Below, one piece after another: positions 60,087-62,760 of a stretch of DNA of 62,760 nucleotides; the first letter of the stretch is position 1; every line of letters starts with the position of its first letter. The notes beneath the pieces are model-generated. The model saw only the letters and a program-made list of their open reading frames with translations. It was not told where the DNA came from and did not search any database. A program made the position numbers and the translations under genes. Source of the DNA: Flavobacteriales bacterium (GTDB lineage Bacteria; Bacteroidota; Bacteroidia; UBA10329); assembly GCA_021739695.1 (NCBI GenBank), contig JAIPBM010000028.1:1-62760 (forward strand), read 5' to 3'.

Positions 60087-60475
60087 TGCTCCAATAATGA
60101 CAATTGGTATTCATATAATCATTATTGGTTTTCAAATAATGACAATTGGTATTCAAATAATCATTATCGGTATTCAAATAATGACAATTGGTTATTCAAT
60201 GATGAACATTGGTTATCATATTATCATCCTACGACATTCCACTAAGGCTCTGGCTTATTCAATAACCATTCTTGGTATTTCTAGAACCACCCTTGGTATT
60301 TCCAGAACCACCCTTGGTATTTCCAGAACCATTCTTGGTATTTCTAGAACCACCCTTGGTATTTCTAGAACCATTGTTGGTATTTCCAGAACCATTCTTG
60401 GTATTTCTAGAACCACCCTTGGTATTTCTAGAACCATTCTTGGTATTTCTAGAACCACCATCAGATTACCAACAG
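60087..60475. repeat. 21-bp-period degenerate tandem array D (18 units, two sequence types)
   Basis: The core TTGG recurs at 60104, 60125, 60146, 60167 (TCGG), 60188 and 60209, then after two decayed units at 60272, 60293, 60314, 60335, 60356, 60377, 60398, 60419 and 60440. All lie on one 21-base grid. The left half has consensus near ATAATGACAATTGGTATTCA, the right half near CTTGGTATTTCTAGAACC. A 198-codon plus-strand open frame (60001-60597) covers it, reading TLGISRT heptads; I regard that as a by-product of the period. Confidence 0.93.
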
Positions 60476-60678
60476 ACGGCCTAGCATTACCGATTATGAT
60501 AATTGAAGGTGGGAAAAGGGCTTGGCGATGCCCCCTTTTCAGTCATGCTACAGCGAGCAGCGATGAGGGTGTTGGATATGTTCAGAGGAATGGGTAGTAT
60601 TGATGGATATAAAAACAACGGAGCCTACAGAAAGAATTACCTATAGCACCCCTAATTGGAGGGCTATAAAAAGAAATC

Positions 60679-60746
60679 GTGCTTGGGCAAAGGCGGATAT
60701 GATAAATTGCAGTAGTGGAATTTATCATAGCCCCTAGTTGTAGCAC
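60679..60746. other. Hairpin element E0, left boundary of cassette 1 (attC-like)
   Basis: GTGCT (60679-60683) pairs with AGCAC (60742-60746), and TATGATAAATT (60698-60708) pairs perfectly with AATTTATCATA (60719-60729). The element ends with the box GTTGTAGCAC (60737-60746), which is the reverse complement of the box just after the cassette 1 gene. It has no AAAATAGGG arms, unlike E1 and E2, and may be the edge of the array. Confidence 0.55.
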
Positions 60747-60762
60747 ATTTTGAAATCGCCCT

Positions 60763-61479
60763 ATGTTATTGACACTTTCTAAGCGCCAGGATACAAATTC
60801 GAATACCGTATCGGCTAAAGAGTTCTTGGAATGGGCGAAAAAAGACCTTGAGAACAGTGACAAGCATTCAATCGGTAATGGAATTGGTAATATTAAGAAG
60901 GCCATTCACTGCCGAATAGACGAGATAATTGACGACACTCATATAAGGCACTGTGAAGGATGGAATAAGTTTGCCTCTACCGACACGAAACTTGAAGCTT
61001 TACGTCTGTTGAATTTTAAATTTACTGCGGTTGTTAGTCTGCTTACTGACATCAGGAATAAATACGAACATCAGTACAAACTCCCCGAATATCGGGAAGC
61101 ACAAGGCTTCTTGGACACAGCTGAAATGTGGCTTGAAATGTCCTATGATAAATACTCTTTCAATAAGCTGGCGATTGTTGGTCTAAAAACAACTGATTTT
61201 GGCGTTTCGTACAGTAATAATGGCACAAAACTCACAAGTTGTAAAATCGTCAAGTCTTCATCTTTAGACTACATATGGGACAGTAAAAAAGAAATTCACG
61301 AAATCAAGAAAGGGGTACGAAAAATTGTTCATATGAACACCATACCATGGAGGACAATGGCACAATATGAAGCAAAACATTTGGTCTTTACGGGGACACC
61401 AAATAAGACCGTCCATGTTCTGCCTGCGTCAATATTGACGAGTATATTTCGAAAAGCCTTAAAGGAACTTGTGGTATGA
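60763..61479 (+). CDS. Cassette 1 gene: hypothetical protein, possible HEPN-like
   Basis: A 238-residue soluble protein. The N-terminal half is helical: SAKEFLEWAKKDLENSDKH, GIGNIKKAIHCRIDEII, FKFTAVVSLLTDIRNKYEHQY. RNKYEH fits the Rx4-6H pattern of HEPN ribonuclease domains, but I do not recognise the whole family. The gene begins 17 bases after the left cassette box, and the right box starts within 7 bases of its stop. The content is AT-rich and differs from the neighbouring chromosomal genes. Confidence 0.7.
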   Translation: MLLTLSKRQDTNSNTVSAKEFLEWAKKDLENSDKHSIGNGIGNIKKAIHCRIDEIIDDTHIRHCEGWNKFASTDTKLEALRLLNFKFTAVVSLLTDIRNKYEHQYKLPEYREAQGFLDTAEMWLEMSYDKYSFNKLAIVGLKTTDFGVSYSNNGTKLTSCKIVKSSSLDYIWDSKKEIHEIKKGVRKIVHMNTIPWRTMAQYEAKHLVFTGTPNKTVHVLPASILTSIFRKALKELVV

Positions 61480-61485
61480 AAAAAC

Positions 61486-61621
61486 GTGCTACAACACCAT
61501 CTATGCAAAATAGGGACTCATCAGTTACGCAGGGTTCGGGTTTATCTGTCCGCTCCTGTCCTGTGGGACAGGGCGAAGCAGTTAAAACCCTATTTTTCAT
61601 AGCTGAGAACCGTTGGCAAAC
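61486..61621. other. attC-like palindromic element E1 between cassettes 1 and 2
   Basis: It starts with GTGCTACAAC (61486-61495), six bases after the stop codon of the cassette 1 gene. Arms AAAATAGGG (61507-61515) and CCCTATTTT (61588-61596) form the stem, and CCTGTCC/GGACAGG makes an inner hairpin. It ends with GTTGGCAAAC (61612-61621), the left box of cassette 2. It is 136 bases long. Confidence 0.75.
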
Positions 61622-61647
61622 ATTTTGGCGCATCTAGAAAACATCAG

Positions 61648-62625
61648 ATGAAAACTGCGCATTTCTTAGTTCTATTTTCCATAACGATGCTGTTTGGTTT
61701 CGCTCAGACCGTGGTTGCACAAAATGAATGGCCTAGTTCGAACTCAGAATGGAATTTTGCTTTTGGCGGACCACCGTATTACGGCTACGCTCGGTACTAT
61801 GTAAATGGTATTGAGACAGTTCAAGGAAAGACCTGTACCCGTTTGTTCGGTGACAGTTACTTCTTGTCCAATTATACGCAAGGTACAGAACCAAGCTATC
61901 TATGGTATTTTGACGGAGACACACTATGGCATTACGTTGAAAGTGAATCTGTTTTTCATCCTTTGGTTTGCTTCAACGCAGTTCCAGGTGACACTTGGTT
62001 TCCGCTCGACACAGCGATTGGAGATGCTACCTGTTCTAACAGCCCGATGGAAGTGACCGATACGTTTTCAGTTTATCACAACGGACAAGCATTCCGTGGA
62101 GTGACTGTACATACCGAAGTTGACGGATACATATGGTGGGGAGGTTCTTTTAACGAACGAACATTTATGGATACTGCAACCTATTCAAATGGTAATCCTT
62201 ATTTCGGATACAATCCGTTTCCGCAATACAACGGATGCAGCGGTGTAGTTGATTGGTACTTCTATTCTTTGCTGTGCTACTCAGATACAGAACTTGATAT
62301 TGTCGTTAACAACATCAGTTCGATAGAAGGACATCAGAATTGCGACTATCCTTGGAACGAAGTATCGGTTCACGGGCTTGACCCCTTAGAAAACGTGCTT
62401 TTTTATCCCAATCCGACAAGTAACCGAATTCAAATAGACCTTGGTTCTACAATCGGAACAATCACAATAAACGCATACAACGCTTTGGGAGAATTGGTTA
62501 GCACAGAAACGCGGAATTCACAGGTACGTATCGACTACATTTTACCAGACCCAATAGGCATTTATCTACTTCAATTGGTTCAGACGGACGGAAATGTCAC
62601 TAACCTGAAAGTGGTGAAAGAATAA
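61648..62625 (+). CDS. Cassette 2 gene: T9SS-secreted protein
   Basis: A 325-residue protein with signal peptide (FLVLFSITMLFGFAQTVVAQ). A W/Y-rich middle (NEWPSSNSEWNFAFGGPPYYGYARYY) is followed by a T9SS type A sorting domain (residues about 250-325): NVLFYPNPTSNRIQIDLGS, INAYNALGELVSTE, LPDPIGIYLLQLVQTDG, ending KVVKE. The function is unknown. It lies entirely within one cassette unit, 26 bases after the left box, and the right box begins 5 bases after its stop. Confidence 0.85.
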   Translation: MKTAHFLVLFSITMLFGFAQTVVAQNEWPSSNSEWNFAFGGPPYYGYARYYVNGIETVQGKTCTRLFGDSYFLSNYTQGTEPSYLWYFDGDTLWHYVESESVFHPLVCFNAVPGDTWFPLDTAIGDATCSNSPMEVTDTFSVYHNGQAFRGVTVHTEVDGYIWWGGSFNERTFMDTATYSNGNPYFGYNPFPQYNGCSGVVDWYFYSLLCYSDTELDIVVNNISSIEGHQNCDYPWNEVSVHGLDPLENVLFYPNPTSNRIQIDLGSTIGTITINAYNALGELVSTETRNSQVRIDYILPDPIGIYLLQLVQTDGNVTNLKVVKE

Positions 62626-62630
62626 AAAAC

Positions 62631-62760
62631 GTTTGCCAACATCAACTATAAAAATAGGGCGTGAAGTGGTTGCCGCTAGTTCATCATGGTTTGCAGTTTT
62701 CGGTTTCGGGCGAAAGGACGAAGGTGTTAAAACCCTATTTTCATAGTTGTAAAACGTTGG
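62631..62760. other. attC-like palindromic element E2 (cut by window end)
   Basis: It starts with GTTTGCCAAC (62631-62640), the reverse complement of the cassette 2 left box. CAACTATAAAAATAGGG (62643-62659) and CCCTATTTTCATAGTTG (62733-62749) are inverted repeats with 16 of 17 matches. GTTGG at 62756-62760 looks like the start of the next cassette's left box. If complete, the element is about 135 bases, as E1 is. Confidence 0.75.

Follow-up and report, generated by a model that had tools for sequence, protein, structure and literature searches.

Two consecutive genes at the end of this contig are each enclosed by a pair of complementary 10-base boxes, which raises the question of whether they form an integron-like cassette array and, if so, which enzyme would serve it. 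The window (the whole stretch of DNA that was analysed, 62,760 nucleotides) is the entire contig C28, one of 53 contigs in a Bacteroidia genome, and terminates within the second attC-like site. Based on the comparisons below, it very probably holds the start of a cassette array belonging to an integron-like platform that is widespread in Bacteroidia and is served by a tyrosine recombinase (YR) whose N-terminal domain is HARP/DUF5710-like; the enzyme is here named HARP-YR.

The cassette array in the window

The following features were identified at the end of the window.

60689..60739, + strand: attI-like site with the terminus ..CCCCTA/GTT, a motif common to the sites on contigs C45 and C33
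60737..60746, + strand: left (R') box of cassette 1, GTTGTAGCAC, with its 10-bp reverse complement at 61486-61495
60763..61479, + strand: cassette 1 gene (ORF), 238 aa
61486..61621, + strand: attC-like site 1 (R'' 61486-61495, L'' 61498-61515, L' 61588-61605, R' 61612-61621)
61648..62625, + strand: cassette 2 gene (ORF), 325 aa, predicted secreted protein with a type IX secretion tail (Pfam Por_Secre_tail, 5.7e-07)
62631..62760, + strand: attC-like site 2 (R'' 62631-62640, L'' 62643-62659, L' 62733-62749, R' starting at 62756 and truncated where the contig stops)

The boxes of cassette 1 (GTTGTAGCAC at 60737-60746 and its partner GTGCTACAAC at 61486-61495) and of cassette 2 (GTTGGCAAAC at 61612-61621 and its partner GTTTGCCAAC at 62631-62640) are present as originally predicted, and the right boxes indeed start 6 and 5 bases past the stop codons. 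The same holds for the common arms between the units (AAAATAGGG at 61507 and 62651; CCCTATTTT at 61588 and 62733) and for the conserved right arm GTTAAAACCCTATTTT at 61581 and 62726. The left box of cassette 1 is followed by an unpaired A at 60747 and then by TTTT; the A-run and TTTT flanking the boxes constitute an outer stem, which extends the box beyond a one-base mismatch. As a single strand, attC-like site 1 folds as a long hairpin (z -4.5). An Rfam search of the array region returned nothing, and a Pfam search with the cassette 1 protein gave no significant match and no recognised family.

The boxes had been noted to break the GTTRRRY consensus. RRRY is not kept and GTT is invariant, and because canonical arrays of the same phylum also read, e.g., GTTATGT or GTTATAC, the departure is not decisive against an integron. 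The window was also said to lack an integrase, and PF00589 matches ten places in the genome, none of them on C28; upstream of the attI-like site, there is only a weak match to an integrase remnant (60612-60701, E 1.4). The motif AAAGGCGGATATGA...CCCCTAGTTG is common to this attI-like site, to a site on C45 (L077) that holds the stop codon of an integrase and to a site on C33 (L035) behind a truncated integrase. Contig C5 opens with the same 139 bases that close C28 and then continues GTTGGCGCTC. A 21-base unit is repeated in tandem at 60093-60227 and 60264-60457, past the last backbone gene and ahead of the attI-like site. Short repeats are also found upstream of the platforms on C33 and C45.

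Further sites in the source genome

When the right arm GTTAAAACCCTATTTT was searched in the genome, matches were found on many contigs, frequently at contig ends. A covariance model built from 24 sites gave 47 site matches in the source genome and also matches in 7 of 8 same-genus genomes, so the further array units that had been anticipated do exist, both here and in relatives. Within the L stem, compensatory changes occur at two pairs, with a covariation score and a share of paired cells above all 500 shuffles and all slid versions. Using blastn, the cassettes of the source genome gave only partial matches in relatives, chiefly in the secretion tail of cassette 2.

The complementarity of the boxes extends to additional copies. 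Cassette starts were chosen solely by the inner stem or the attI motif, leaving out those that run into a contig end, and of the 26 testable starts, 18 are followed within 6 kb by the reverse complement of their own 9-10 bp box. With a chance expectation of about 0.02 per 6 kb for one 9-mer, about 0.6 starts would be expected. Boxes of different cassettes agree at positions 5-9 in only 0.22-0.50. Position 11 is never paired in the source-genome cassettes and positions 12-14 mostly are, and the longest ORF runs parallel to the array direction in 15 of the 18. On contigs C43 and C42 (L033:11200-13100 and L037:10400-11150), sites were seen that have their centre replaced by a CCTACTAGGTTTTCAAAACCTACTAGG-bearing repeat, or that lack the R'' box.

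A candidate integrase

One recombinase of 426 aa is encoded at the end of contig C45. Its stop codon is the TAG inside the attI motif CCCCTAGTTG, which is likewise found ahead of cassette 1 in the window and on C33; on C45 this attI is followed, at GTT, by a cassette. A search for a tyrosine recombinase next to the array had been suggested; such an enzyme adjoins these arrays on C45 and at HARP-YR loci across Bacteroidia, and judged by sequence the HARP-YR of C45 is likely their integrase. On C33 (L035:2677-2837), a 5'-truncated integrase of which only the final 53 codons are left (94% identity to the C45 copy) keeps its attI and three cassettes, suggesting that platforms may be duplicated by their 3' end.

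The catalytic set of tyrosine recombinases (R227, K252, H317, R320, H343 and Y352) is invariant in 17 members, and the AlphaFold model of a relative aligns best to VchIntIA and XerA (residues 91-363). The C45 protein scores 209 bits against TIGR02249 (IntI), with a cut-off of 265, and its best NCBIfam score is 209.2 bits to NF040815 (XerA), with a family cut-off of 220. Its alignment to VchIntIA omits about 43 IntI residues between the two halves. Among members with readable motifs, 57-59 residues separate KGxKDR from HxLRH in HARP-YRs, compared to 100 in canonical IntI of the phylum and 66 in Xer, and the catalytic part measures about 268-280 aa in HARP-YRs versus 310-316 aa in canonical IntI. 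The IntI-specific additional domain (I2) around patch III is absent from the HARP-YRs. Published accounts treat this domain as both defining and indispensable for integron integrases (PMC9668308, PMC8138268, PMC7790495). According to PMC8138268, the IntI-specific insertion is incompletely conserved in an integron-like subgroup, so that some HARP-YRs may already sit there with their arrays unrecognised.

Distribution and site signature

A HARP-YR profile (E 1e-80 or better) matches 146 of 295 sampled Bacteroidia genomes, a number that is slightly too high because some matches are IS91-linked recombinases without the N-terminal domain, e.g. in G047. By de novo chaining, at least three cassettes were found behind a HARP-YR in 29 loci, giving 136 cassettes in chains of 3-8. 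Such downstream chains are spread over families throughout Bacteroidia, cultured Flavobacterium, Winogradskyella, Algibacter and Seonamhaeicola among them. Chains are longer downstream than upstream in a comparison of 44 paired loci (Wilcoxon p 6.6e-6), with maxima of 8 and 3, respectively; as upstream controls reach a chain of 3 in 2 of the 44, a few of the shortest chains may be due to chance. Upstream regions and other triplets were used as controls, since the GTT...AAC units are symmetric and reverse-strand chains are useless for this purpose. As a positive control, canonical arrays were clear only in L303, L309 and L310, the other seven canonical loci not lying clearly above control triplets.

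A GTT start within 250 nt past the stop codon with its own 10-bp complement was found in 33 of 64 loci, compared to 4 of 60 upstream. GTT ranks best among all 64 triplets in this test, and the signal collapses at 11 bp, as a fixed mismatch predicts. The triplet test was used at K=10; K=9 was dropped because AT-rich triplets gave a high background. At K=9, 17 of 64 testable HARP-YR loci have no box start within 300 nt, and some HARP-YRs may hence have lost the array or do something else. Of 104 loci, 28 have a contig end no more than 1 kb from the 3' side of the integrase, and 2 have one equally near its 5' side.

Some HARP-YR homologues (L148, L159, L163 and L144) are found in MAGs labelled Undinarchaeota, Firmicutes, Spirochaetota and Alphaproteobacteria, reflecting either transfer or mis-binning. 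Nearly all matches in IMG/VR are without the N-terminal domain. Across genera, the same 9-base boxes recur more often than expected from column frequencies, with 73 distinct boxes among 114 versus 103.5 expected (500 simulations, minimum 93); this count took in the source genome and 18 other arrays (L088-L351).

The 136 cassettes from the 29 loci are paired at positions 1-9, for which they were selected, and at position 10 in half of the cases. Position 11 is an A in 129 of the 136 and unpaired. Positions 12-14, which were not used in the selection, pair at 0.73-0.88 within a cassette versus 0.34-0.46 between cassettes, and past position 14 pairing drops to background. The sites have a signature of their own, i.e. 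9-10 bp, an unpaired A and 3 bp more, unlike 20 canonical cassettes of the same phylum, in which pairing is continuous to position 11-12 and then fades.

This difference bears on another explanation, in which the window holds a canonical integron array or an integrase-less attC cluster, with its IntI on a plasmid, elsewhere or lost, and the HARP-YR is an incidental neighbour. The attC-like topology and the GTT junction do match integrons, and canonical IntI is common in other classes of the phylum (above cut-off in 84 of 296 genomes of the phylum sample), where arrays have similar box complementarity. However, besides the deviating signature, no protein above the TIGR02249 cut-off was found in 59 relatives, source genome included, and among the matches listed only one canonical IntI is from the same class (G092), the rest lying outside Bacteroidia. 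Moreover, arrays begin about 30-180 nt past HARP-YR stop codons in many families, and the C45 attI overlaps the HARP-YR gene. Cassette turnover in a complete genome that has a HARP-YR and such arrays but no canonical IntI would speak against this explanation, and two Chryseobacterium plasmids and genome G508, described below, approach such a case. We consider a canonical origin of the array highly improbable.

Junctions at GTT

Cassette variation, put forward earlier as a check on the array, is seen in related platforms that bear different cassettes, with homology ending exactly at GTT. The Chryseobacterium plasmids NZ_CP041688 and NZ_CP094530 show 96.5% identity that runs through the integrase 3' end, and homology stops exactly after ..TATAAACAAGTT, 107 nt past the integrase stop, with different genes beyond. 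For L094 and L324 (81.9%), homology stops exactly at ..CCCAACGTT, after GTT, and in genome G508 two copies of integrase and attI are 100% identical over 1051 bp and diverge exactly after GTT. The attI site thus lies beside the integrase gene, with homology lost exactly after GTT in three independent pairs. In the source genome, one cassette start (from GTTG) is present as 139 identical bases behind attI on C45 and behind an attC on C9, with a continuation on C16. The assembly is fragmented and the C45/C9 junctions could reflect a strain mixture or a repeat, either of which implies a GTT junction.

The sequence comparisons show different cassettes behind near-identical platforms and one cassette start in two contexts. 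They also show a repeat architecture placed beside an integrase, with an exact GTT junction: the cassettes stand in tandem with attC-type imperfect hairpins and R boxes that join at GTT, and R'' is complementary to the start of its own cassette in 18 cassettes of the source genome and 136 elsewhere. These observations are difficult to reconcile with intergenic hairpin repeats (terminators, or REP-/MITE-like elements) that are not recombination sites and were spread by e.g. an IS200- or IS91-like transposase. Such repeats would agree with hairpins directly after stop codons, with the close kinship of IS91-linked recombinases to HARP-YRs in the tree below and with an IS91 in one plasmid array. 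Yet a terminator or MITE needs no box complementary to the far end of a gene unit, the cassette-specific own complements of 9-10 bp suggest that the gene unit moves as a whole, and platform homology stops exactly at GTT. Simple hairpin repeats are most unlikely, and the sites are better read as recombination sites of a cassette system.

Relationship to known systems

In a phylogenetic tree, 15 canonical IntI form a 100/100 clade and 46 HARP-YRs fall outside it, in another clade (98/97) that also includes IS91-linked recombinases; the joining node has a support of 88/74. Cassette recombination either arose separately in the HARP-YR lineage or predates IntI, and the tree by itself does not decide between the two. 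Nested in the HARP-YR clade are IS91-linked or similar tyrosine recombinases without the HARP-like domain (L111, L112, L120, L177, L188, L193, L199 and L204), a nesting that suggests a shared ancestor of IS91 partners and cassette integrases. The IS91-family accessory recombinases have their catalytic domains in this clade, but unlike HARP-YRs they lack the HARP-like domain, adjoin an IS91 transposase and have no cassette arrays by the same test.

The layout is integron-like on every feature that could be tested. As in IntI integrons, both the mobile ones of class 1-3 and sedentary chromosomal ones such as the Vibrio superintegron, single-gene cassettes stand in tandem, mostly in one orientation, attI adjoins the integrase and the attC-like hairpins of about 135 nt have a GTT junction and complementary cassette-end boxes. 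The integrase, in contrast, fails the features that define the family: it lies outside the IntI clade and has no IntI-specific insert. It also carries a HARP-like N-terminal domain, and its gene has attI at the 3' end. We therefore regard the system, whose recombination we infer from sequence, as an integron-type variant that is new and independent of IntI.

The best structural alignment of the catalytic part of HARP-YR is to archaeal XerA (5hxy, Z 23.3). XerA acts at dif and is not known to serve cassette arrays. It differs from HARP-YR in lacking the HARP-like domain, and the C45 protein stays below the NF040815 cut-off of 220. In NCBI, one plasmid HARP-YR carries the annotation 'site-specific tyrosine recombinase/integron integrase', the label of this XerA model. 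With IntegronFinder 2, at first only integrases without cassettes and then one complete integron, in Salinibacter, were reported for Bacteroidetes in RefSeq (PMC9024848). No description of HARP-domain recombinases with cassettes was found in open-access papers, the literature covered by the search.

The N-terminal domain

HARP-YRs have about 70 extra residues ahead of the usual core domains. Among 50 members searched with Pfam, DUF5710 was matched in 19 and HARP (PF07443) in 6, with a best value of 4.7e-07. The HARP domain of SMARCAL1 (4o66) came first in a PDB-sequence profile search (E 0.033) and also in Foldseek with a model of the N-terminal domain (71 aa, pLDDT 91; E 0.09, probability 0.84). 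With VIA-align, N-terminal domains of XPB rank at the top with a Z of about 7, which is not strong. The resemblance to HARP is weak in most members. By analogy with SMARCAL1 and XPB, which act on forked or branched DNA and, unlike HARP-YRs, have an ATPase motor, the domain would have a HARP-like fold and may bind branched or folded DNA. Four HARP-YRs (L138, L142, L143 and L172) seemingly have two copies of the domain; vertebrate SMARCAL1 has two HARP repeats (PMC4035279).

Proposed mechanism

We propose that HARP-YR, whose gene has an attI-like site overlapping its 3' end or lying shortly past it, is the enzyme by which cassettes, usually one gene with its own attC-like site, would enter and leave at the GTT of attI and of each attC. 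Circular cassettes would be the intermediate and a single folded strand the substrate. The folded attC strand would comprise an outer stem of 3 bp, the unpaired A, the R box of 9-10 bp, an asymmetric spacer, a long L stem bearing a one-base mismatch and a variable tip. Each cassette would have its own R box, since the two halves of the box form opposite ends of one circular cassette. The HARP-like N-terminal domain might take over from the IntI I2 helix and assist in binding or folding the hairpin.

The cassette system might also be real while HARP-YR works on double-stranded sites, as Xer does, without single-strand folding. In favour of such a mode, HARP-YR is without the I2 helix, which in IntI docks extrahelical bases and blocks the second strand exchange (PMC7790495), and it resembles XerA. 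The sites nevertheless keep long stems that are imperfect at fixed mismatches, L-stem pairs with compensatory changes, an outer clamp of 3 bp and cassette-specific boxes, none of which would be expected to persist under double-stranded recognition. Overall, double-stranded recombination seems unlikely, albeit not negligible, and folding of a single strand is the preferred reading. The chances are about even that the HARP-YR lineage never had I2 and reads the folded attC through its HARP-like domain, the integron mechanism having arisen twice or predating IntI.

Implications

The original reading, a divergent integron or some other system of cassette recombination characteristic of Bacteroidota, is supported by the further units, the adjoining recombinase and the cassette variation. 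The HARP-YR system was probably overlooked because its integrase and its sites both fall outside the usual models. As explained in PMC7790495, the accepted account is that IntI acquired the I2 helix and with it single-strand cassette recombination, I2 being necessary for capture and not known from any other protein. A cassette system without I2 would make this account testable and may represent a second way of building a gene-capture machine. It would also expose a large pool of mobile genes in Bacteroidota, mostly uncharacterised and partly carried on plasmids.
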